This document shows, piece by piece, positions 3,792 to 38,344 of a stretch of DNA of 45,583 nucleotides. The notes beneath the pieces are model-generated. The model searched no databases, was not told where the DNA came from, and worked only from the letters and a program-made list of their open reading frames with translations. The translations under genes were made by a program, and so were the position numbers. Source of the DNA: a virus; IMG/VR virus record IMGVR_UViG_3300028802_000025, positions 1-45,583 of that record; one strand, 5' to 3'. Within the stretch, counting starts at the first letter, position 1. Each line of letters begins with the position of its first letter.

Positions 3792-4624
3792 CCACGACAG
3801 CAGCGCGGGCCGACGTCCCGCCGCGAACCGACGTTCTGCGCTCGATGCCGTTCGCGGTCCGCGCCGCCGCCGACGGTGAGCCGGACGACGGGCTCACCCT
3901 CGATGGGTTCGCCGCGGTCTTCAACCGCAAGACCCTCATCGACTCTTGGGAGGGGCGATTCTTCGAGCAGATCGCCCCCGGCTCGATGAAGAAGAGCTTC
4001 CGTGAGGCCCCGCCGGTCATCCAGTTCGAGCACGGCCGCCACCCGCTGATCGGGTCCATGCCGATCGCCGAACTGACCCGCATCGAGGAAGCCTCCGACC
4101 CCGAACTCGCCCCCGACGGCGGCGCGCACGTGGTCGGGCGGCTCACCGATAACTGGCTGATCCAGCCGGTCCGGGACGCCATCGCGAACCGCTCCGTCAA
4201 CGGCATGAGCTTCCGGTTCACCGTCGTCCGCGAGAAGTGGGCCGACGCGGCCGGGCGGCAGATCCGCAACGAGGACGAGCTGCAGCAGTTGCTGCGGCGC
4301 ACGTGGATCGAGGACGTCCCCGACGAGGAGCTGCTTACCCGGACCCTCCAGGAGATGCGCGTCCCCGAACTCGGGCCGGTGGTCTTCCCGGCCTACACCG
4401 ATACGTCGGTCGGCGTCCGCTCGATGCTCGACCGCCTCGAACAGCTCCAGCCTTCGGAGCTGAGCGCGCTCGCGGAGCGCGTCAACGACCTCACCGCCAC
4501 CGGCGCGCGGAGTGCCGACGGCGGTGACCTTGCAGGTACGCAGCCAGGAAACGGCGAGCGGCCACCCGTTCCGACCCGTTCGCGCGCCGATACCGACGCG
4601 CTTCGCCTGAGAGGCATCCTGTGA
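3788..4624 (+). CDS. Prohead maturation protease, HK97 (S78/U35) family
   Basis: The 278-aa serine protease would remove the scaffold-like N-terminal domain of the capsid protein during head maturation. The HK97-protease signature is visible: the strand GFAAVFN near 40-46, QFEHGRHPLIGS at 79-90 supplying the catalytic His, and NGMSFRF at 138-144 with the likely nucleophile Ser141. The Pro/Arg-rich C-terminal 60 residues look disordered and may be self-cleaved. The ATG overlaps the portal stop and its own TGA overlaps the capsid GTG. Confidence 0.93.
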   Translation: MTTTAARADVPPRTDVLRSMPFAVRAAADGEPDDGLTLDGFAAVFNRKTLIDSWEGRFFEQIAPGSMKKSFREAPPVIQFEHGRHPLIGSMPIAELTRIEEASDPELAPDGGAHVVGRLTDNWLIQPVRDAIANRSVNGMSFRFTVVREKWADAAGRQIRNEDELQQLLRRTWIEDVPDEELLTRTLQEMRVPELGPVVFPAYTDTSVGVRSMLDRLEQLQPSELSALAERVNDLTATGARSADGGDLAGTQPGNGERPPVPTRSRADTDALRLRGIL

Positions 4625-6207
4625 ACCTCCGCCGCAAGCCGACCCTGCTCGGCTACCGCAAGAACGGCGCCCCGATCTGGCTGGCCCAGGGTGGCGCCCC
4701 CGACTCCGACGACCTCATCGAGAGCTTCCGCGGCAAGGACGTGACCAGCCTCGGCGACGGCACGCCCGATGAGCTGCGCGGCAAGACCCCCGACGAGCTG
4801 GCCCGGTACGTCGAGGTGCTCGACGCGCACCTGCGTTCGCTGCACCAGGACGAGGACACTGGCGAGCTTCGCGAGAAGAGCGCCGACGAGCAGAAGGCCT
4901 TCGACTACGGCCTGAAGCTGCGCGACAAGGCCATCGCGAAGATCGACGAGCACCGCAACATTCAGGAGATCTTCCGCCGCAAGCCCGCCGCGGTGCAGCG
5001 GGCGCTGGCGAACATCAAGACCGGCGGCGACGACGCGTACGGCGACGTCCGCCGGATGCCGAACGCCGAGGCCCGCGACCGGGCCCTGCGCACGCTCGAC
5101 GACCGCAACGCCGCATCGCACCTGCGCTCCGACGAGAAGGACCACGTCGAGCAGCAGATCCGCCGTAACCCCGACATCGCCCGGCGGATCCTCGTCACCG
5201 AGAACGAGCACTACCGCGAAGCGTGGATGAAGCTCGTCACCGACCCCAACGCCGTCGGCCTCCTGTCCGACGACGAGCGGCAGGCGGTCCGCGCCTACCA
5301 GGAGTACCGGGCGGCAAGCGAGGGCACCACCACCGCCGGCGGCTTCGGCATCCCGGTCTTCATCGACCCGTCGATCATCATGACGGCGCAGGGCAGCGGG
5401 AACCCGTTCCTGTCCATCGCGAAGCAGGTCGACGTCAACACCAACGTCTGGAAGGGCGTCAGCTCGGCCGGCGTGTCCTGGTCGTTCGACTCCGAGGCGT
5501 CGGCGGTCAGCGACGACAGCCCGACCCTGGCGCAGCCGATCGTGTCGGTGTTCATGGCCCGCGGCTTCATCCCGTACTCGATCGAGGTGGGGATGGACTA
5601 CCCCGGCTTCGCGAGCGAGATGCAGGCGCTGCTGGCGTCCGGCTACGACGAGCTGCTGGTCGACAAGTTCACCCGCGGCTCCGGCACCGGCGAGCCGAAG
5701 GGCATCCTGACCTGCCTGTCGGCGAACACGAACGTGCGGGTTAAGGTGGCGACCAACCCGGGCATCACCGTCAACGACCCGTACAACGTGTGGCAGGCCA
5801 TCCCGCAGCGCAACCGGCGCAACGCGTCGTGGCTGATGAACGTGGCCGTGAACAACTCCATCCGGCAGCTCGGCGCGGCCAACGTCTACCACGCGTACAC
5901 GGTGAACCTGCCGCAGGGCGCGGTCGAGGAGCTGTTCCAGCGGCCGGTCTACGAGTCGCCGTACATGCCGACCACGACCACGGTGACCACGGCGACCGAG
6001 GGCTACGCCATCGCGGGTGACTTCTCCAACTACGTGATCGCCCGCCGCGGCGGCATGTCGGTCGAGCTGATCCCGCAGATCTTCCAGCAGGCCACGGCGG
6101 GTTCCGCGTACGGCATGCCGACCGGCCAGCGCGGCCTGTTCGCCTACTCCCGGATCGGTGGGTCGTCGGCGAACGACCTCGCGTTCCGGCTGCTGGTGTC
6201 GAGCTGA
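4621..6207 (+). CDS. Major capsid protein, HK97 fold with N-terminal delta domain
   Basis: A 528-aa precursor. Residues 1 to about 225 are charged and helical (Glu/Lys/Arg-rich), as expected for the delta scaffolding domain removed by the upstream protease. From about 230 the HK97 fold begins (EGTTTAGGFGIPVFIDPSI), followed by the E-loop/spine region and conserved SNYVIARRGGMSVELIPQ near 465-485. The cleavage site is probably near the AASEGTTTAGG stretch; this is inferred. The GTG start at 4621 overlaps the protease stop by four bases. Confidence 0.95.
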   Translation: MNLRRKPTLLGYRKNGAPIWLAQGGAPDSDDLIESFRGKDVTSLGDGTPDELRGKTPDELARYVEVLDAHLRSLHQDEDTGELREKSADEQKAFDYGLKLRDKAIAKIDEHRNIQEIFRRKPAAVQRALANIKTGGDDAYGDVRRMPNAEARDRALRTLDDRNAASHLRSDEKDHVEQQIRRNPDIARRILVTENEHYREAWMKLVTDPNAVGLLSDDERQAVRAYQEYRAASEGTTTAGGFGIPVFIDPSIIMTAQGSGNPFLSIAKQVDVNTNVWKGVSSAGVSWSFDSEASAVSDDSPTLAQPIVSVFMARGFIPYSIEVGMDYPGFASEMQALLASGYDELLVDKFTRGSGTGEPKGILTCLSANTNVRVKVATNPGITVNDPYNVWQAIPQRNRRNASWLMNVAVNNSIRQLGAANVYHAYTVNLPQGAVEELFQRPVYESPYMPTTTTVTTATEGYAIAGDFSNYVIARRGGMSVELIPQIFQQATAGSAYGMPTGQRGLFAYSRIGGSSANDLAFRLLVSS

Positions 6208-6392
6208 TGCCCGACCCGAAGCCGGAACCCCGCAAGGCGCCTGACCCGAAGCCGGTCCTGGCCCGCGCGGCCGAGTCCGGTGATCCGGCAGTCCACCAGA
6301 TCATGGCGGAGCTGCAGACGGCGCAGATGAACGGCGACGAGATGAAGGTCGCCGAGCTGAGCAAGCAGCTGGCCGCACTCGGCTACTGCTGA
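6207..6392 (+). CDS. Small acidic/proline-rich protein after capsid
   Basis: A 61-aa protein whose ATG overlaps the capsid TGA (TGATG). The first 20 residues contain a repeated DPKPE/DPKPV motif; the rest is a predicted amphipathic helix (MAELQTAQMNGDEMKVAELSKQLAAL). No family recognised. Being coupled to the capsid gene it is probably made in quantity, so a head-associated or assembly role is plausible but unproven. A strong hairpin follows it. Confidence 0.65.
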   Translation: MPDPKPEPRKAPDPKPVLARAAESGDPAVHQIMAELQTAQMNGDEMKVAELSKQLAALGYC

Positions 6393-6428: not shown

Positions 6429-6451
6429 TCACCTACGTGGGAGGTAAAGAG

Positions 6452-6694
6452 ATGGATGTGGTCTACGCGGTGGACACCGCGCAGATACCGACCGAGGCGT
6501 GCGGCGTCGTCCTGGTCAACAAGGGCGAGCACTGGGCGGCGGACGACCCGGTGGTGAAGGCCGCCCCGACCCTGTTCTCGACCGATGCGCGGTACGGGAT
6601 GCGGTACAGCGCGGAGCCGCCCGGCTACAACGACCCGCCGGTGGAGCAGGCCACCGCCGCTCCCGGCGAGAAGCGGAGCGTCCGGCGTGGCTGA
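6452..6694 (+). CDS. Hypothetical head-region protein
   Basis: An 80-aa protein. The ATG at 6452 is chosen because GGGAGG lies at 6439-6444; the upstream in-frame GTG (6437) overlaps that site. The sequence is Ala/Pro/Glu-rich with a VVLVNKGEHWAADDPVVKA core, recalling small phage proteins that follow the capsid gene and sometimes act as head decoration or connector accessories. It overlaps the start of the glycosyltransferase fusion gene by 8 bp. Function not known. Confidence 0.6.
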   Translation: MDVVYAVDTAQIPTEACGVVLVNKGEHWAADDPVVKAAPTLFSTDARYGMRYSAEPPGYNDPPVEQATAAPGEKRSVRRG

Positions 6695-8087
6695 GGCTCC
6701 CGACGCTCCGGCCGACGCGGTCGTCCTGGCCTACGTGTGCGGCAACGAGGTCGCCTACTCGTGGCACCGGTCGATGGTCCAGCTGATCGGCTACGACGCC
6801 CAGACCAACCAGCGGCTCGGCGACGGCCGCGGCGGGTTCCTGGCCCTGCGCTACGGCACCGGCGGGCTGATCCAGGCCCGCAACCAGGCCGCCTACGACT
6901 TCCTCAACGACTACCCGGACGCCGACTGGCTGTTCTGGATCGACACCGACATGGGCTTCCCCGAAAACGCGCTCGAGCAACTCCTCGAAGCGGCGGACCC
7001 GGTCGAGCGGCCGATCGTCGGCGCGCTGTGCTTCTCGCAGCAGGAGATCGAGTCCGACGGTATGGGTGGCCGCCGCGTCCAGCCGACCCCGGTCATCTAC
7101 GACTGGATCACCGTCGATGACCAGTCCGGGTACGCGGTGCGCTGGGACTACCCGCGTGACACGGTGACCCAGTGCCATGCGACCGGTTCGGCGTGCATCC
7201 TGATTCACCGCAGCGCCCTGGAGCGCATCCGGGACGAATTCGGGACCTGGTACGACCGGGTGCCGAACCCCAGCACGCAGCAGCTGTTCTCCGAGGACCT
7301 GTCGTTCTGCGTCCGCGCCGGCGCCCTGGACATCCCGGTATTCGTCGACACGCGGGTGAAGACGACGCACCTGAAGCCGATCTGGGTGTCCGAGGACTTC
7401 TACGTCCGGGAGCGGGCCGCGCTGGCCATCCTGGAGCGCCGGCCGGACATCTCCGGGTTGAAGCGGGTCGCGATGACCCGCGAGCAGGCCTGGACGTTCG
7501 ACCTGCTGCCGGACGCGCTGGCCGAGTTGGACATCACCGCGAAGGCGATCCTGCACGTCGGAGCGCACCGTGGTGAGGAGATCCCGGTCTACCGCAAGTG
7601 CGGCTTCGAGCAGATCACCCTGGTGGAGCCGGACCCGGACAACGCCGCGTTCCTGCGGACCGAGTTCCCGGACTGCGCCGTCGTCGAGTGCGCCGTCGGG
7701 CCCGAACTCGGCGCAGCCACTTTGCACCGCGCCGTCGACAGCGTGTTCAGCGGACTGAAGGCCGACGCGGGTGTCCCGACTGTCGGCCAGGTCGAGGTGG
7801 CGGTCCTGCCGTTGCGCGAGATCCAGGCCGATCATGCCGCGAACGTGCTGGTCGTCGATACCCAGGGCACCGAACTGGCGGCCCTGGCATCGGCCGACCT
7901 GGGCGGCGTCGACCTGCTGGTGGTGGAGACGCAGGAGCTGTCCCGGGATCTGTACGCCGCGTTCTGGCCGGACGCGGTGGAGGCGCTCGGGAAGGTGGGT
8001 TTCGTCCCGGCGATCCGCTGGGAGCACGAGGCCCACTTCGCCGACACCCTGTTCGTGCGGCAGTCGGCCGACGCGGTGGCGTCGTGA
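6687..8087 (+). CDS. Glycosyltransferase fused to FkbM-type methyltransferase
   Basis: A 466-aa two-domain protein. Residues 1-265 look like a GT-A glycosyltransferase: AYVCGNEVAYSW at the N-terminus and WLFWIDTDMGFP, whose D86-x-D88 would hold the metal-nucleotide-sugar. Residues from about 285 look like an FkbM-family SAM methyltransferase: ILHVGAHRGEE (SAM-binding loop), TLVEPDPDNAAF (ribose-binding acidic residue) and VLVVDTQGTELAAL. GTG 6687 is chosen from GGAG at 6675-6678; longer upstream reading would replace the neighbouring gene. It lies inside the structural operon, so transfer of a sugar and its O-methylation on a virion protein is the best inference. Host-wall or DNA modification are alternatives. 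Confidence 0.82.
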   Translation: MAEAPDAPADAVVLAYVCGNEVAYSWHRSMVQLIGYDAQTNQRLGDGRGGFLALRYGTGGLIQARNQAAYDFLNDYPDADWLFWIDTDMGFPENALEQLLEAADPVERPIVGALCFSQQEIESDGMGGRRVQPTPVIYDWITVDDQSGYAVRWDYPRDTVTQCHATGSACILIHRSALERIRDEFGTWYDRVPNPSTQQLFSEDLSFCVRAGALDIPVFVDTRVKTTHLKPIWVSEDFYVRERAALAILERRPDISGLKRVAMTREQAWTFDLLPDALAELDITAKAILHVGAHRGEEIPVYRKCGFEQITLVEPDPDNAAFLRTEFPDCAVVECAVGPELGAATLHRAVDSVFSGLKADAGVPTVGQVEVAVLPLREIQADHAANVLVVDTQGTELAALASADLGGVDLLVVETQELSRDLYAAFWPDAVEALGKVGFVPAIRWEHEAHFADTLFVRQSADAVAS

Positions 8088-8263
8088 ACATCTGGGCTGT
8101 CGTCTACGGAAACTACGAGCCCGCCGAGGTGGATTCGCTGTGGGCCACGGAGGACCTCGCCCTCAGGCGCGAGGAGAAGCTCGATGAAGCCGCTGATGGC
8201 GACATGAGCATGTGGCGCGTAGTTCAGTGGAAAGTCGGCACTGAGGATCCCGATGGGGTCTGA
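8084..8263 (+). CDS. Small hypothetical protein between glycosyltransferases
   Basis: A 59-aa protein. GTG 8084 overlaps the stop of the fusion gene (GTGA) and its end overlaps the next glycosyltransferase by 11 bp. The sequence starts NIWAVVYGNYEPAEVDSLWAT and contains a charged helix, similar in style to small phage proteins that begin with an aromatic beta strand. No motif gives a function. The tight coupling suggests it belongs to the glycosylation cassette. Confidence 0.6.
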   Translation: MNIWAVVYGNYEPAEVDSLWATEDLALRREEKLDEAADGDMSMWRVVQWKVGTEDPDGV

Positions 8264-8981
8264 CCTGCTGGTCATCGTCCCGTCGCGGGGCCGCCCGGAC
8301 TCCCTGGAACGGGTCGCTGATGCCTGGGACGCCACCGGGGCATTCGCTGAGTCAGCGGGTCTCATCTTCGCCGTCGACGTCGACGACCCGCGCATGCCGG
8401 GCTACCGCGCCGCCCTGGATCGCCTGGCGGCGGCCAGTCCCGGCCCTAGGACCATCAACCTGATGAACTGCGGCCCGTGGCAGCCGATGGTGGCCAAACT
8501 CAACCACGCCGCCACCATGTTCGCCGGTCAGGGCCACTTCGCACTCGGTTTCGCAGGCGACGACCACCTACCCCGCACGACCGGCTGGGCCGCCCGCTAC
8601 CTCGAGACCCTGCGCGAGATGGGAACCGGGATCGCCTACGGCAACGACCTGCTGCAGGGCGAGCGGCTGTGCACGTCGTGGGCAATGACGTCGGACATCG
8701 TGCGGGCGCTCGGCCGGATGGTCCCGGCGCCGGTGGACCACATGTACTGCGACAACTCGGTGATGGACCTGGGCCGGGATGCCGGCTGCCTGCGTTACCT
8801 GCCGGACGTGGTCATCGAGCATTGCCACCCGCTCGCCGGTAAGGCGGAGTGGGACACCGGGTACGCGCGGGTCAACCGGGCCGAGCAGTTCCAGCGTGAC
8901 GAGGCGGCCTACCGGCAGTGGTGCGGTTCCGGCCGTGATGCGGACGTGGCAACGATCAAGTCACTCGCTACAGAAAGCTGA
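8253..8981 (+). CDS. Glycosyltransferase, GT-A fold
   Basis: The 242-aa protein begins LLVIVPSRGRPDSLERV, the typical first strand and loop of GT2-like glycosyltransferases, and has HFALGFAGDDHLP near 100-113, where DDH is the metal/nucleotide-sugar site. VDHMYCDNSVMDLGRDAG near 155-172 fits the acceptor/catalytic half. No membrane segment is visible, so it is probably cytosolic. Start ATG 8253. It follows the fusion enzyme in the same transcript, so the two likely act in sequence on the same glycan. The acceptor is unknown; the Ser/Thr-rich proteins encoded at 10138-12816 are candidates. Confidence 0.82.
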   Translation: MGSDLLVIVPSRGRPDSLERVADAWDATGAFAESAGLIFAVDVDDPRMPGYRAALDRLAAASPGPRTINLMNCGPWQPMVAKLNHAATMFAGQGHFALGFAGDDHLPRTTGWAARYLETLREMGTGIAYGNDLLQGERLCTSWAMTSDIVRALGRMVPAPVDHMYCDNSVMDLGRDAGCLRYLPDVVIEHCHPLAGKAEWDTGYARVNRAEQFQRDEAAYRQWCGSGRDADVATIKSLATES

Positions 8982-9195
8982 GCGGGTCGGCCTTCCAATC
9001 GTCGGCATGCGAACAGCCGGGATGATGCAGGACTGGCGGTAGCCCGTCCGACCGGAAGTTACCGCAGTCGGGACACTGCCCTGCCGCGAAGCCGGACTCC
9101 GCACGCGCCACCTGAAGCTGCGTGTAGATCTGGTCGGCCGTTGGATGGTTCTTCGCCTGGTGGATCAGTTCCCGCAGTTCTTCCGCCGTCGTCAT
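8968..9195 (-). CDS. Small zinc-site protein on the opposite strand (moron-like)
   Basis: A 75-aa protein read leftwards inside the rightward late operon. The N-terminal half is helical (TTAEELRELIHQAKNHPTA); the C-terminal half has CPDCGNF and HHPGCSH, a plausible zinc site. The ATG (9195) has no clear Shine-Dalgarno site, but TACCTT lies seven bases upstream, which could be the -10 of a leaderless transcript. Its 3' end overlaps the glycosyltransferase by 14 bp and its 5' end abuts the adaptor gene. An independently expressed cargo gene is the likely reading. Confidence 0.6.
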   Translation of the reverse strand: MTTAEELRELIHQAKNHPTADQIYTQLQVARAESGFAAGQCPDCGNFRSDGLPPVLHHPGCSHADDWKADPLSFL

Positions 9196-9231: not shown

Positions 9232-9765
9232 GTGACCCAGTACGCGACCGCCACTGAGCTGGCCGGCAGGCTGCAGAAGGACCTCGACACGTACAGCGCC
9301 AACCAGGTCCTCACCCTCACCTCCAGCCTGTTCTCCCGGACAGCGGACACGTGGTGGGAAGCAACGACCGTCACCTACACGGTCCTCGGGACGTTCTGCC
9401 CGTCGATCGCCCTGCCGTTCCGGCCGATCAGCGCGGTCACGGCGGTGCGGATCAACGGGGTGGCCGTCACCGGCTGGACGCTGATCAAGCGGACGCTGTG
9501 GCGTACCGGCGGGTTCGGGGTCTCGTGCGTGATCCCGCCGGACGAGGTCGACATCGACCTGACCCACGGCTACGCGGCCCCGACCGACGACGTCAAAGGC
9601 GCGGTCCTGGAGACGGCGGCTCAGGCATATGAGGTCCCGCCCAGTGCCGTGATCAGTGAGTCCATTGATGACTACGCGGTCAAATACGCCACTGCCGGCG
9701 GCCTGCAGCTCACCGCGTCGGCGCGGGATCTCGCGTACATGTACCGCGGCACTCTCGTCGCCTGA
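9232..9765 (+). CDS. Head-tail adaptor (HK97 gp6-like connector)
   Basis: A 177-aa protein starting at GTG 9232 (YATATELAGRLQKDLDTYSANQVLTL); the longer reading from 9145 would overlap the opposite-strand gene. Layout fits the first head-tail connector: an N-terminal helical segment, a central beta-rich part (CPSIALPFRPISAVTAVRINGVAVTGW; DEVDIDLTHGY), then C-terminal helices (VKGAVLETAAQAYEVP). It would form the ring below the portal. The assignment uses this pattern plus position ahead of the stopper and gp10-like genes. Confidence 0.78.
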   Translation: MTQYATATELAGRLQKDLDTYSANQVLTLTSSLFSRTADTWWEATTVTYTVLGTFCPSIALPFRPISAVTAVRINGVAVTGWTLIKRTLWRTGGFGVSCVIPPDEVDIDLTHGYAAPTDDVKGAVLETAAQAYEVPPSAVISESIDDYAVKYATAGGLQLTASARDLAYMYRGTLVA

Positions 9766-10137: not shown

Positions 10138-10821
10138 GTGGCTCCGACGCTGGTCACCACTCCGTACTACGTCCAGATCTCCCCGCAGGGCACCTCGGCG
10201 CTGACGACAACGAGTTTTACGCCCAGCAACGGCGAAGTCCTCGTGATCAAGCTGGGCACCTGGGACACCAACTCGCCGCTGGGCGCGCCGACCGGTGGAA
10301 GCCAGACCTACACGGCGCGCGTCACGAACGCGCCTGGCGGATTCAACCAGTGGTGCGCCATCTACACCTGCGTCATCAGCGGCTCGCCCGGGTCGATGAC
10401 GGTCAGTTCAACGCCGTCGATCAGCCTGCGCGGCAGCATGGTTGTCGAGCGCTGGTCCGGCGCCCAACTGGCCGCAACGCCGGTGACGGCGACCTCGGCC
10501 TCCACCGGTGCGGCGTCCGGCTCGATCACCCCGTCGTCGGGGTCGAGCATCATCTCCTGGACCGCTGGGGACGTTAACTCGGTCGACCCGGCCACGCGCA
10601 CGTATCTGGCCTCGGCCACCCAGGACGGCCTACGGGACGACCATGTGGGCTCGAACGGCGTCGACTACCACGCCTACCAGTCGTCTACCGGCACAGGCAG
10701 CCAGAGCTACGGGCTGTCCGCCCCGACCGGTATGGCCTATGTGACCGCTGCCATCGAGGTCCAGGACTCCGGCGGCGCACCCGCCATCCCACCGATCTTG
10801 ATCATGGCTCCACGACGTTAG
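10138..10821 (+). CDS. Ser/Thr-rich beta-type virion protein
   Basis: A 227-aa protein starting at GTG 10138. It is rich in Ser, Thr and Gly and alternates hydrophobic and polar residues, with repeated short strands (GEVLVIKLGTW; SMTVSSTPSISLRGSMVVERWSG; AYVTAAIEVQD), suggesting an Ig-like or jelly-roll surface domain. The last residues (PPILIMAPRR) form a hydrophobic tail. Its position between the adaptor and stopper genes, in a run of similar proteins, suggests a capsid decoration or head-fibre component. It could be a substrate of the upstream glycosyltransferases. Confidence 0.65.
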   Translation: MAPTLVTTPYYVQISPQGTSALTTTSFTPSNGEVLVIKLGTWDTNSPLGAPTGGSQTYTARVTNAPGGFNQWCAIYTCVISGSPGSMTVSSTPSISLRGSMVVERWSGAQLAATPVTATSASTGAASGSITPSSGSSIISWTAGDVNSVDPATRTYLASATQDGLRDDHVGSNGVDYHAYQSSTGTGSQSYGLSAPTGMAYVTAAIEVQDSGGAPAIPPILIMAPRR

Positions 10822-10834
10822 GGAGATTGATCCG

Positions 10835-11281
10835 ATGGCGCGTTTCTCCTCGTCGTGGCGCACGGGCGGCGCCGGGTCGACGACCCTGCCGATCGGCGGC
10901 CTGATGTCGGTGTCCGGCTGCCGCCCCCGGCTGGTCGAGGTCGGCGTCTTCAACACGACCACTACGGCGTGTGCGGTTGCGCTGCGCCGGGTGACCGCGG
11001 CGGGAACGTCCGGTTCCACGCAGTCGGTGCTGTACGAGTCCGACTCGGCGCAGACGGCCCTGGCCACCCCGAAGGACACGTGGACGGTCACGCCGACGTT
11101 CGTGTCCGGCAACATCCGGGTGGCGTCGCTGGGCGCGGCGATCGGCTCCGGAATCATTTGGACGTTCGGCGGACCCGCGGGCGGCCTGGTCATCCCGAAC
11201 ACGACCGGCGACGGGATCGTCGTCTCCGTGCTCACCGGCACCGGCCAGATCTGCGACCTCTCGCTGACCTGGGACGAGTGA
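10835..11281 (+). CDS. Hypothetical beta-rich virion protein
   Basis: A 148-aa protein with GGGAG at 10821-10825 before ATG 10835. It is Thr/Gly/Ser-rich with probable strands (RPRLVEVGVFNTTTTACAVALRRVTAA; DGIVVSVLTGTGQICDLSLTWDE). This pattern resembles small phage proteins forming beta-sandwich trimers on heads or tails. No enzymatic motif is present. It is grouped with the neighbouring genes as a probable surface component. Confidence 0.62.
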   Translation: MARFSSSWRTGGAGSTTLPIGGLMSVSGCRPRLVEVGVFNTTTTACAVALRRVTAAGTSGSTQSVLYESDSAQTALATPKDTWTVTPTFVSGNIRVASLGAAIGSGIIWTFGGPAGGLVIPNTTGDGIVVSVLTGTGQICDLSLTWDE

Positions 11282-11306: not shown

Positions 11307-12215
11307 ATGAGCCAGTTCGTCCGTTACCCGCTTCCGCAGGCCGGAGCCACGAGCGTCCGGCATCCGGTCATCATCCAGCCGCTCGCCACGACGTCCACCA
11401 GCAACGGCACCGCCACGGTCACCGGCGCCGGTACAGTCACCGCGCTGGCGACTCAGGCCGCCGGCCAGACCGTCACCGGCACTGGCGCCACGTCCGCCGC
11501 CATCACGATCATCGCCACGGCGACCGTCGCCGGCGCAGGGTCCGTAACCGCCCTGGCGACCCTGCCCGGCTCCGCAACGGCAATCGGCACCGGAACGACG
11601 GCTGCCCTCGTCACCGAGGTGGCCAGCGCAACCGTCACGGGCGCGGGCTCGGTCTCGGCGAACTCCGGCGGCACCACGTCGGGCACAGCCACCGTTACCG
11701 GGGCCGGCTCCACCGCGGCGCTCGCTACGGCCGCCGCCCCAGCCTCCGCCACCGGCGCAGGGTCGGTTTCGGCCCTGGCAACGGTCGCGGCAGGCAAGAC
11801 GGTCTCCGGATCGGGTTCGGTCACTGCCGTCGCTGTCCAGATCGCCACCGCCACGATCGCGGGCGTCGGCTCGGTCACCGCGAACTCAGGCGCGGCAAGC
11901 TCCGGCACTGCGACGGTCACGGGCGCTGGATCGGTCAGCGCGTCCGGCTCGATCGTCGGCTCGGCCACCGTCACGGGAGCCGGAGCGGTCACCGCACTGG
12001 CTCGGCTTCAGGCCACCGCGGGCCGGACCGGCGCGGGCTCCGTCTCGGCTTCCGGCGGCCTGGTCATCACCGGCACCGCGACCGTCGCTGGGCAAGGCTT
12101 CGTCACCGCGAGCTCCAACTCGCGGATCACCCCGCGCCCGTTCTCGGGCACCACGTCCCGCCCGAACTCCGGCATCACGCCACGACCGTTCGCGGGCACC
12201 ACCGCTCGCCCCTGA
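11307..12215 (+). CDS. Thr/Ala/Gly-rich repeat protein, likely surface fibre or decoration
   Basis: A 302-aa protein built almost entirely of about 13 imperfect repeats of 16-20 residues with consensus TATVTGAGSVTALAT. After a short leader (residues 1-35) the repeats run to about residue 265. The C-terminus has a second repeat of the type ITPRPFSGTT-RPNSGITPRPFAGTTARP. The alternating pattern predicts a beta-solenoid or beta-helix. Very high Thr/Ser content makes it a candidate acceptor for O-glycosylation by the upstream enzymes (inference). Repeats like these expand and contract by recombination. Confidence 0.72.
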   Translation: MSQFVRYPLPQAGATSVRHPVIIQPLATTSTSNGTATVTGAGTVTALATQAAGQTVTGTGATSAAITIIATATVAGAGSVTALATLPGSATAIGTGTTAALVTEVASATVTGAGSVSANSGGTTSGTATVTGAGSTAALATAAAPASATGAGSVSALATVAAGKTVSGSGSVTAVAVQIATATIAGVGSVTANSGAASSGTATVTGAGSVSASGSIVGSATVTGAGAVTALARLQATAGRTGAGSVSASGGLVITGTATVAGQGFVTASSNSRITPRPFSGTTSRPNSGITPRPFAGTTARP

Positions 12216-12223
12216 GGAGCGCC

Positions 12224-12388
12224 ATGACCGACCAGAGCGAATCGCCGGAGTTCGACGAAGGGCAGGGCTGGCGGGTGCTCGACGCCGACGGGAACGTCGT
12301 GCAGTCCGGTGGCATCTCGATCGCCCTGGCTGACGGCCAACTTGCCCAGCTCATCGAGCAGTTCAGCACCGAAGGAGAGCAGGAGTAA
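12224..12388 (+). CDS. Small acidic protein
   Basis: A 54-aa protein. The ATG at 12224 follows GAGGAGCG (12214-12221) and the TAA shares its last base with the next ATG (12388). It is acidic with two parts: GWRVLDADGNVVQSGG, a short beta hairpin, and a helix LADGQLAQLIEQFSTEG. Function is unknown. Coupled translation and good codon use support a real gene in the structural block. Confidence 0.6.
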   Translation: MTDQSESPEFDEGQGWRVLDADGNVVQSGGISIALADGQLAQLIEQFSTEGEQE

Positions 12389-12816
12389 TGGCCGGTCTTC
12401 CCAACACGTTGATCTCGAACGTTCTCAACGCCACCACGCCGACCGGCACCTCGGGTGCGCCCGGCTCGTTCACCGCGTTCGCGGGCTCGGCGATGAAGGT
12501 CCGGCTCAACTCGACCAGCTCGACCGCCTCGGCGAACGGCACCCAGCTCACAGGCACCGGCTACACCGCCGGCGGCACCGCCGTCCCGGCCGCGTCGACC
12601 GCGTCCAGCTCGGGCAGCAACGTGACCCTCCCGGCGTCGTCGGCACTGTCGTGGACGAATGGCTCGGGCGGCTCGTGGTCGATCCAGTCGTTCGACCTGA
12701 CCGACTCGGCCGCGGCCCGGTCCTGGTTCGGCGACTTCAACGGCGCGCCGATCAGCGTGGCGAACGGCAACACCTTCCAGATCGCGGTCGGTGGGATCAG
12801 CATCGGGCTCGCATGA
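12388..12816 (+). CDS. Ser/Thr/Ala-rich virion protein
   Basis: A 142-aa protein coupled to both neighbours (start overlaps the preceding TAA, end overlaps the stopper ATG). The N-terminal 100 residues are Ser/Thr/Gly/Ala-rich; the C-terminal part (SWFGDFNGAPISVANGNTFQIAVGGISIGLA) is a compact beta segment that resembles a conserved module in actinophage proteins encoded before the stopper. Probable head decoration or head-tail accessory protein; not an enzyme by visible motifs. Confidence 0.65.
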   Translation: MAGLPNTLISNVLNATTPTGTSGAPGSFTAFAGSAMKVRLNSTSSTASANGTQLTGTGYTAGGTAVPAASTASSSGSNVTLPASSALSWTNGSGGSWSIQSFDLTDSAAARSWFGDFNGAPISVANGNTFQIAVGGISIGLA

Positions 12817-25715: not shown

Positions 25716-26561
25716 TCAGCCGGCGAAGCGGGGCAGGGTCGCCCGCGCCGCCCGCTGCTGCTCGTCGGTCGCGTCGGTGTAGATCTGCGTCGACGAGAGC
25801 CGGGCGTGGCCGAGGAGCCGCTGCGTGACCCGGATGTCCTTGAACTCCCGCTGCACCGTCGTCCCGAGCCAATGCCGCAGCCGGTGCATCGACGTCTCGA
25901 TCCCCGCCTTCTGGAACTGATAGGCGGCCTCCGCGCTGATGTAGTGCGCCGACGCCCGTTCGCCGTTGTCCGGCCGGCGCGCGACCGGCCCGGCCGGCAG
26001 ATCCTTCACGGCCTGCCACACGGCGGGGTCGGTGTCGTGGACCCGCGGCCGGTTGCCCTTGCCGAGCGGCACGATGGTCTGCTGGGCGTCGAAGTGGTTG
26101 CGGTCCGCCCGGCTGATCTCGATGCAGCGGAACCCCTGGTACGCGGCCAGGATCGCCCACAACCGGTACGGGTCCGGCACCTGCGTGATGATGCGGCCAA
26201 CCTGCTCGTCGGTGGCGGCCCGGGCGATGCTCTCGGCCGAAGCGACCGGCGGCAGCCGCTCGGTCGGGTCCGCGCTCAGCCACGGGTCGTCGGGGTCGGC
26301 CGCCCAGCCGTAGAACGACTTGAGCGCCCCGTAGTAGGTGGCCCGCGTGTTCTGCGACCAGTCATCGCGGTACAGCCACTCGCGCAGCTCGGCTTCGCGG
26401 ACCTGGCCGATGCCGAACTCCATCTCCCGGTTGAGCCGGTACAGCACCTCGCGCCGCCCCTGGATGGTCTTCTCGGTGCGCCCCTTGTCGTGTAGGTGGC
26501 GTAGATACGCCTCGATGATTTCCATCTCTTGAGGCTCGGCCTGACCGATCCGGATCGACAT
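25716..26561 (-). CDS. int: Tyrosine-type phage integrase
   Basis: A 281-aa site-specific recombinase that inserts the phage genome at the host attachment site. The N-terminal SAM-like core-binding domain covers about 12-90 (YLRHLHDKGRTEKTIQGRREVLYRL in part). The catalytic domain shows R145 (YQGFRCIEIS), K168 (LGKGNR), H226-x-L-R229-H230, H252 (LLGHARLSS) and the nucleophile Y261 (TQIYTDA). All active-site residues are present, so it should be functional. It starts three bases after the repressor stop, so both form one operon. It is short, lacking an N-terminal arm-binding domain of usual length. Confidence 0.93.
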   Translation of the reverse strand: MSIRIGQAEPQEMEIIEAYLRHLHDKGRTEKTIQGRREVLYRLNREMEFGIGQVREAELREWLYRDDWSQNTRATYYGALKSFYGWAADPDDPWLSADPTERLPPVASAESIARAATDEQVGRIITQVPDPYRLWAILAAYQGFRCIEISRADRNHFDAQQTIVPLGKGNRPRVHDTDPAVWQAVKDLPAGPVARRPDNGERASAHYISAEAAYQFQKAGIETSMHRLRHWLGTTVQREFKDIRVTQRLLGHARLSSTQIYTDATDEQQRAARATLPRFAG

Positions 26562-37362: not shown

Positions 37363-37586
37363 CCATCTGCGCGACCTGCGGCGACCCGATCGTCAAGACC
37401 GGCGTGACCCAGTCCGGGCTCGCCACCTGGGATCACGACGGCGAGCCCGCGGAGCATCCAGCCACGCCTCAGCCGACATGCCCGGCCTGCCGTTCCACTG
37501 ACTACCGGATGCGCCCAGAAGCCTGGGGCGATAGCTGGGACTGCGGCACGTGCGGCCACCACGAGTTCGTATCGCTGGGGGACTGA
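37359..37586 (+). CDS. Double zinc-ribbon protein
   Basis: A 75-aa protein, GTG 37359. CATCGDP near the N-terminus, then CPACRSTDYRMRPEAWGDSW and CGTCGHHEF make at least one complete four-Cys ribbon (CxxC-CxxC, about 40-67). Likely a nucleic-acid or protein-binding ribbon. Ends in a TGATG overlap with the methyltransferase gene. Confidence 0.7.
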   Translation: MTICATCGDPIVKTGVTQSGLATWDHDGEPAEHPATPQPTCPACRSTDYRMRPEAWGDSWDCGTCGHHEFVSLGD

Positions 37587-38344
37587 TGGAGCCTTACTAC
37601 GAGGACGCCGACGCCGTGCTCTACCTCGGCGACATGCGCCAGGTCCTGCCGGTGCTCGACGTAGCCGCCGACTGCGTGATCGCCGACCCACCGTACGGCG
37701 AGACGTCACTGGCGTGGGATCGGTGGCCTTCCGGCTGGCCTGATGCGCTGATCGGCGCGGCCCGCTCGATGTGGTGCTTCGGCTCGATGCGCATGTTCCT
37801 AACGCGCCGCGACGAATTCACGTCCTGGCAGCTCAGCCAGGACCTTGTCATCGAGAAGGGCGCCGGGGCGGGCATGCACAACGACCGCTTCCGCCGCGTC
37901 CACGAACTGGTCACACATTGGTACCGGGGCCGCTGGGACGCCATCTGGAAAGAGCCGCAACGCGAGCCGGAAGCGCCCGACGCGCGACCCGGCAAGGCGA
38001 TCAAGAGCCACATGCCTGTCACCCACGGCGCGTATGGCAAGCCGAGCATCTGGCTGCCGACCGATACCCGCCTCATGCGGTCGGTGCTGCGCACGCCCTC
38101 GATGCGCGGTCAGGCGCTGCATCCGACCGAGAAGGCCGGGCGGATCCTCACCCCGCTGATCGAGTACGCCTCACCGCCCGGCGGCCTGATCCTCGACCCG
38201 TTCGCCGGCTCCGGCTCGACCGCTGTCGCCGCCCGACTGCTTGGCCGCCGTGCCGTGCTGATCGAGGCCGACGAAAAGTACTGCGAGCTGATCGCCAAGC
38301 GCCTTTGTCAGGGCGTTCTTCCGTTCGGAATGGAGGGTGCCTGA
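37586..38344 (+). CDS. DNA methyltransferase (N6-adenine/N4-cytosine, orphan)
   Basis: A 252-aa SAM-dependent DNA methylase. ATG 37586 is chosen because it overlaps the preceding stop. The catalytic motif DPPYGE is at 34-39 and the SAM-binding DPFAGSGSTAVAARLLGRRA starts near 204, so the catalytic motif comes first (beta-type order). HPTEKAGRILTPLIEYAS precedes it as usual. No restriction partner is seen, so it probably protects phage DNA from host restriction or marks it for control. The target sequence cannot be read from the protein. Confidence 0.9.
   Translation: MEPYYEDADAVLYLGDMRQVLPVLDVAADCVIADPPYGETSLAWDRWPSGWPDALIGAARSMWCFGSMRMFLTRRDEFTSWQLSQDLVIEKGAGAGMHNDRFRRVHELVTHWYRGRWDAIWKEPQREPEAPDARPGKAIKSHMPVTHGAYGKPSIWLPTDTRLMRSVLRTPSMRGQALHPTEKAGRILTPLIEYASPPGGLILDPFAGSGSTAVAARLLGRRAVLIEADEKYCELIAKRLCQGVLPFGMEGA

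Follow-up and report, generated by a model that had tools for sequence, protein, structure and literature searches.

The window analysed here is the whole of IMG/VR virus record IMGVR_UViG_3300028802_000025 (45.6 kb; 45,583 nucleotides; 69% GC), which belongs to a soil phage and carries two glycosyltransferase genes, GT1-FkbM and GT2, inside the block of virion genes. GT1 was tied to the gene of the major capsid protein (MCP) across related phages, and the cassette that contains it probably adds sugars to the phage's own particle, with the head as the likeliest target. The phage is a temperate siphophage with an integrase gene at 25716-26561 on the minus strand, and its late genes are arranged in the order terminase, portal, protease, MCP, a 61-aa protein, an 80-aa protein, GT1-FkbM, a 59-aa protein, GT2 and head-tail adaptor. 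The original prediction had placed a glycosyltransferase-FkbM fusion, a 59-aa gene and a second glycosyltransferase between the capsid genes and the adaptor, and the coordinates and domains proved to be correct. The main features of the locus are as follows.

4621..6207, plus strand: MCP, HK97 type (phrog_10, E 2e-28); the family to which GT1 is tied, and a candidate acceptor
6207..6392, plus strand: 61-aa protein after the MCP (profile matches); kept in most relatives
6452..6694, plus strand: 80-aa small head or head-tail connector protein (phrog_9538, E 9e-7); always precedes GT1
6687..8087, plus strand: GT1-FkbM fusion, 466 aa, GTG start to TGA; GT-A domain at about 6687-7436, FkbM Pfam match at 7554-7913
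6942..6950, plus strand: GT1 codons D86-T87-D88, putative DxD metal and nucleotide-sugar motif; invariant in 27 sequences
7293..7298, plus strand: GT1 codons E203-D204, ED motif, predicted to be catalytic; invariant in 27 sequences
8253..8981, plus strand: GT2, predicted second GT-A glycosyltransferase, ATG start (phrog_14945 and phrog_2675; AlphaFold2; Foldseek)
8559..8567, plus strand: GT2 codons D103-D104-H105, at the metal-motif position; invariant in 16 sequences
9232..9765, plus strand: head-tail adaptor (phrog_442, E 8e-21), the downstream boundary of the cassette

A query of viral contigs with GT1-FkbM as the sole bait returned 80 loci. When all GT1 loci were clustered at 95% nucleotide identity, 88 clusters were obtained, 84 of them with more than 2.5 kb of upstream sequence, and the same MCP lay no more than 4 kb upstream of GT1 in 84/84 of these non-redundant loci. 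The commonest arrangement was MCP, 61-aa gene, 80-aa gene and GT1. A search with the MCP, blind to glycosyltransferases, returned 57 new loci, and GT1 was present in all 43 that extend past the 80-aa gene. An equally blind search with the 80-aa gene returned 74 new loci, and GT1 was the next gene in 72/72 of those with room for it. The GT1, MCP and 80-aa search sets share contigs, and the queries were independent. Pairwise distances of GT1 and the MCP were correlated (Spearman 0.70, 82 loci), and the corresponding value for the MCP and the portal was 0.69. The partial correlation of GT1 was 0.41 with the MCP given the portal and 0.15 with the portal given the MCP. Divergence of GT2 was hardly related to that of the MCP (Spearman 0.11). 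In addition, GT1 stays in place when the adaptor family and the downstream genes change, with the MCP and the 80-aa gene constant. These comparisons place GT1 in the head module as the predicted fixed core of the cassette.

Prophages with GT1 were found in Amycolatopsis, Streptomyces, Spongiactinospora, Nonomuraea and Acrocarpospora. Because six prophages (L241 and L245-L249) carry GT1 with none of the other cassette families, GT1 is taken as the minimal unit. Streptomyces speibonae NRRL B-24240 and S. chumphonensis KK1-2 are among the hosts of such GT1-only prophages (L241 and L245). In each of the four host genomes tested, a single copy of GT1 was present, and it lay in the prophage. Outside Actinomycetota, a contig from a Gemmatimonadota metagenome-assembled genome (MAG; L251) holds a portal-protease-MCP-GT1-adaptor module with a GT1 of 30% identity, which suggests that this module is old or was transferred.

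GT1 is missing from Gordonia phages Eyre and Kita and from mycobacteriophages Brujita and Sbash, in which the gene order is otherwise the same: the MCP and a homologue of the 80-aa gene are followed by the adaptor. In the MCP tree, the four phages formed one clade (support 100/99), and GT1 carriers stood on either side of this clade when the tree was midpoint-rooted. This topology fits a single loss of an ancient GT1, with the root placed by midpoint only. These four phages, all from Mycobacteriales hosts, are the full set of GT1-less controls.

Both glycosyltransferase reading frames are conserved over dozens of contigs at 42-98% identity and therefore do not occur by chance. The GT1 domain matched phage glycosyltransferase families of PHROGs (E 1e-17). 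Against Pfam Glycos_transf_2, the window GT1 scored 14 bits, under the cut-off of 23.3, and the GT1 of relatives such as L012 exceeded this cut-off. When residues 1-250 were aligned with 18 relatives of identity down to 42%, W81, D86-T87-D88-M89-G90-F91, E203-D204, H228 and W233 were invariant. This pattern is what would be expected of an active GT-A enzyme, which has DxD and ED motifs. GT2 matched a glycosyltransferase family, phrog_14945 (E 3e-38), and, more strongly, phrog_2675 (E 3e-74); D42, D45, D103-D104-H105, D167, H190 and H192 were invariant among 16 sequences. Structure prediction and Foldseek comparison, which had been suggested as a check on the original prediction, gave GT-A folds for both enzymes, with a mean predicted local distance difference test score in AlphaFold2 of 84.8 for GT1-FkbM and 95.5 for GT2. 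By modelled fold and conserved motifs (DxD and ED in GT1, an acidic motif in GT2), both are predicted GT-A glycosyltransferases. In the Protein Data Bank (PDB), polypeptide GalNAc-transferases ranked first for the GT1-FkbM model (E 2e-6), and for GT2 the top matches were mannosyl-, rhamnosyl- and fucosyltransferases (a mannosyltransferase at E 3e-8).

Polypeptide GalNAc-transferases (GT27) are protein O-glycosyltransferases. They have a GT-A fold like that predicted for GT1; however, GT1 is not a GT27 enzyme by sequence, and its C-terminal domain differs. The modelled fold match supports a protein O-glycosyltransferase, short of proof. The FkbM domain (PF05050) lies at aa 290-409 of GT1-FkbM and passed the Pfam gathering cut-off (E 3e-7; 31 bits against 22.7). 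It differs from other members of its family in being fused to a phage glycosyltransferase inside a head operon. In sister cassettes, a domain of the rhamnosyl O-methyltransferase/CmcI family (PF04989) occupies the same place and is likewise fused to a phage glycosyltransferase in the head operon. The FkbM domain would presumably transfer a methyl group onto a glycan.

The part of the GT1 protein past residue 250 was exchangeable. FkbM domains occupied it in 21 loci, GT2-like domains in 43 and CmcI-type domains in 2, and the gene was short or truncated in 26 (loci not de-duplicated); GT1 may also stand alone, unfused. Comparison with hhalign showed homology between the fused GT2-like domain and the stand-alone GT2 of the window (99.9%, E 1e-36). 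Of the 68 non-redundant cassettes whose downstream region is complete or long, 56 had a GT2-like partner, fused or separate, and GT1 with GT2 is therefore the usual plan. At least one methyltransferase was present in 55/68 and a GDP-mannose 4,6-dehydratase in 23/68. Pfam searches of representative cassettes matched GDP_Man_Dehyd (E 5e-111), UDP-GlcNAc 2-epimerase (E 2e-86), a C-methyltransferase (E 9e-38), RMNT_CmcI (E 2e-32 and 8e-35) and TylF (E 2e-9), as well as Methyltransf_23 and Methyltransf_24. These partners point to nucleotide, deoxy and methylated sugars as likely substrates. GT2, the methyltransferase and the sugar-synthesis enzymes of relatives are thus best described as a putative swappable module around a fixed GT1. 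In two relatives, L070 (6354-7181) and L077 (2726-3718), a hydrophobic and possibly membrane-bound protein without a Pfam match stands in place of the soluble partners, right after GT1. Immediately downstream of GT1 in L035, a gene at 4973-5590 showed a weak match to Pfam Sulfotransfer_3 that stayed under the cut-off, a possible sign that the glycans of some relatives are sulfated.

Taken together, the enzyme families, the catalytic motifs, the GT1-MCP linkage, the modularity and the enzymes in common with the locus of mycobacteriophage Che8 (described below) were established by computation. Virion glycosylation, as the original prediction had it, was well supported, because GT1 is linked to the capsid gene throughout a deep clade, sister cassettes hold sugar-synthesis genes and enzymes are common with Che8. 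Its two additions, a Ser/Thr-rich partner and sugar methylation as the less usual trait, did not stand. Under the favoured explanation, GT1 would be expressed from the late operon alongside the capsid protein and would place the first sugar, from host nucleotide sugars, on Ser or Thr of a head protein (the MCP or a small head protein). GT2 would add a second sugar, and the FkbM domain of GT1 would O-methylate the glycan, thereby capping it. Exchange of the module would alter the surface glycan between related phages. We infer the acceptor, the sugar, the order of steps and any benefit, such as shielding, stability or adsorption. A broader version is possible but tentative. In this version, GT1 would glycosylate a head protein as a step built into, and possibly required for, capsid morphogenesis in a large actinobacterial phage lineage with the Gemmatimonadota MAG as an outlier. 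The step would have been lost once in the Gordonia/Mycobacterium branch, and outer sugars and methylation would be swapped like serotype genes.

Several results weigh against glycosylation of the head. The linkage ties GT1 to the head module and not to a substrate, and no acceptor was identified. The likeness of GT1 to GalNAc-transferases is weak evidence, since the GT-A fold is generic, the structural alignments score low (TM-score 0.29-0.32 over the full query) and no GalNAc-transferase came up when PDB sequences were searched with a GT1 profile. Profiles of GT1, GT2 and FkbM did not match Che8 gp108-110. The reported C-terminal acceptor mode of Che8 and Corndog was not evident at the window tail tube, which ends NAQPNLNAVVA with no Ser or Thr at its end, or at those MCPs of relatives that end VNA; the window MCP ends LLVSS. 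A sequon-like tail of the small head protein, ATAAPGEKR, also occurs in GT1-less phages.

Two candidate acceptor features were rejected. No Ser/Thr-rich C-terminal tail was seen on the MCP or the tail tube. The 80-aa protein has a highly conserved tail, VEQATAAPGEKR, followed by basic residues, and this tail, with Pro at +3, was considered as a GT1-specific O-glycosylation sequon; however, the motif or a variant is kept in Eyre, Kita, Brujita and Sbash, which lack GT1. The tail is perhaps a docking or assembly signal. Another position is a lead. MCP Thr459, predicted to lie in a loop, is Ser or Thr in each of the 89 actinobacterial MCPs compared that are linked to GT1, and all four GT1-less MCPs have Trp there. 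This contrast is confounded by clade, and the GT1-linked MCP from Gemmatimonadota also has Trp at this position.

The virion could also be glycosylated on Ser/Thr-rich proteins past the adaptor, such as fibres or decorations, and not on head proteins, which we regard as unlikely. Downstream of the adaptor, four such genes were found among those up to 12816.

10138-10821, plus strand: ST227, Ser/Thr-rich; a possible, non-conserved acceptor
10835-11281, plus strand: ST148, Ser/Thr-rich; a possible, non-conserved acceptor
11307-12215, plus strand: ST302, 31% Ser+Thr; a possible, non-conserved acceptor
12388..12816, plus strand: ST142, 30% Ser+Thr

The original prediction had described the next genes as Ser/Thr-rich. 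Their composition agreed (26-32% Ser+Thr in the four proteins, compared with 13% in the MCP), but they come after the adaptor and a 108-aa gene and do not follow the enzymes directly. At least one gene with at least 22% Ser+Thr was present within 6.5 kb downstream in 28/41 GT1 loci and in 0/4 GT1-less controls, in favour of these acceptors. In contrast, the other 13 of the 41 loci had none, including prophages in which the adaptor and neck genes directly follow GT1, so that the Ser/Thr-rich genes are not a kept partner of the enzymes. GT1 also stays with the MCP and the small head gene as the adaptor family and the downstream genes vary. ST302 (302 aa; no family) is made up of short repeats such as GTATVTGAGSVTALA, which recall those of a fibre or decoration protein.

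A role on host cell-wall or surface glycans, as in receptor masking, superinfection exclusion or serotype conversion, is well known for phage glycosyltransferases. The fold neighbours of GT2 include the wall teichoic-acid transferases RmlT, TarP and TarS. However, no flippase or polyprenyl-phosphate glycosyltransferase was found between the capsid and adaptor genes of the window, and GT1 and GT2 have no membrane segment (maximum 19-residue hydropathy of 1.37 and 0.93, respectively). Gtr-type serotype conversion pairs its glucosyltransferase with a membrane flippase and a polyprenyl-phosphate glycosyltransferase, and no membrane-like segment was found in GT1, GT2 or the 59-aa open reading frame (ORF). 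Two relatives, L070 and L077, do have a possible membrane protein in the cassette. The location in the late head operon and the co-divergence of GT1 and the MCP are unexpected for a host-surface enzyme, and this role is therefore improbable.

The short ORFs of the locus differed from the two enzymes in conservation.

8084..8263, plus strand: 59-aa ORFan, only in the window; no homologue in fetched loci and no family
8968-9195, minus strand: antisense ORF of 75 aa carrying CPDCG and HHPGC motifs, at the GT2-adaptor junction

The original prediction had proposed coupled starts within one transcript. The starts are indeed coupled, with overlaps of 8 nt between the 80-aa gene and GT1, 4 nt (GTGA) between GT1 and the 59-aa ORF and 11 nt between the 59-aa ORF and GT2. 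The shared transcript is plausible only; the scan showed no promoter- or terminator-like site, which is weak evidence at 69% GC. For the 80-aa gene, GTG at 6437 or 6449 are alternative starts, and the ATG at 6452 has GGAGG on its 5' side. The 59-aa ORF, having no homologue in any fetched locus, is probably not a member of the cassette. The antisense ORF lies between GT2 and the adaptor in the window phage and two near-identical contigs only, is 100% identical in these two relatives and absent elsewhere, and is a recent small insertion into the late operon. That the enzymes are cargo (moron) genes hitchhiking in the late operon and acting on a metabolite or DNA instead of the virion is very improbable: PHROGs places related glycosyltransferases in 'moron, auxiliary metabolic gene and host takeover' and the two flanking ORFs are sporadic and moron-like, yet GT1 is in every clade contig long enough to tell, and its cassette partners are sugar-nucleotide and sugar-methyl enzymes. 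No base-hypermodification gene was recognised with PHROGs and Pfam among the scanned window genes, a set smaller than every ORF, and the only DNA-modification gene among them was a DNA methyltransferase (37550-38344).

Glycosylation of the virion, the favoured explanation, would matter beyond this phage. Phage virion glycosylation is known from few mycobacteriophages, and the Che8 enzymes, which are encoded at a distance from the capsid genes, seem to be accessory. In contrast, almost all relatives found retain GT1 next to the same capsid gene, and the sugar coating therefore looks built into the capsid type. If this is true, a common soil-phage lineage routinely makes sugar-coated capsids with modular switching of the coat. 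The GT1 prophages in named Streptomyces, Nonomuraea and Amycolatopsis strains, some with GT1 only, make the idea testable, and the enzymes are potentially useful as tools for protein O-glycosylation.

Finally, the cassette was compared with known phage systems. Freeman et al. (2023; doi 10.1016/j.chom.2023.05.028) reportedly described virion glycosylation in mycobacteriophages Che8 (gp108-gp110) and Corndog (cluster O). In Che8 gp108, a GT2-family domain is joined to a TylF/Methyltransf_24 domain, and Che8 thus has phage-encoded glycosyltransferases with a methyltransferase, as in the window cassette. However, the Che8 genes are close to the right genome end and a long way from the capsid gene, whereas GT1 lies inside the head gene block. 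Papers that cite this work describe glycosylated virion proteins in Che8, Corndog and Myrna, with Che8 gp110 and Corndog gp38 as essential capsid glycosyltransferases (PMC12363180); glycans on the C-terminal ends of the capsid and tail tube proteins (PMC12619734); and, in cluster O phages, three tandem glycosyltransferases downstream of an O-methyltransferase (PMC11600133). A further paper also cites the Che8 and Corndog work (PMC11256854). Methylation of the sugar, which had been put forward as an unusual trait, is not one, given methyltransferases in 55/68 cassettes, the fusion in Che8 gp108 itself and the cluster O O-methyltransferase (PMC11600133).

Contig L057, which has the ordinary order of MCP, 80-aa gene and GT1, carries relatives of the gp108 methyltransferase domain (61%) and of gp109 (49% over 231 residues), and it was the only GT1 cassette with such relatives. 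Actinoplanes phage phiAsp2 (NC_005885) has a GT2 homologue of 50% identity over 97% at the start of pas34, where a methyltransferase domain of the Methyltransf_24 type is fused to GT2 and not to GT1. The adjoining pas35 is a relative of Che8 gp110 (32%, E 4e-21). The genes pas33-pas34-pas35 follow virion genes, one of them confirmed by N-terminal sequencing, like the window cluster; however, they sit behind tail genes and not the MCP, and lack GT1. Phage phiAsp2 and contigs L095, L096 and L100 have a GT2 homologue near a gp108-like glycosyltransferase but were not found to carry this MCP, and these four are predicted to represent a second genomic home of the same glycan module. In L100, CmcI- and FkbM-like domains lie upstream of GT2. 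Because L057, phiAsp2 and L095, L096 and L100 combine them, window-type and Che8 enzymes mix. Glycosyltransferases of Streptomyces and Arthrobacter phages, such as MeganTheeKilla gp77, are homologous to GT2 (34-38% identity), but the phages have genomes of 120-194 kb, with the gene beside nucleotidyltransferase genes in several, and are unlinked to this MCP. No description of the cassette was found in literature searches of open-licence papers. Virion glycosylation by phage enzymes is already known; what is new, as far as this literature shows, is the close tie to the capsid, a fusion partner that can be exchanged and the presence of sugar-synthesis genes in a virion operon.

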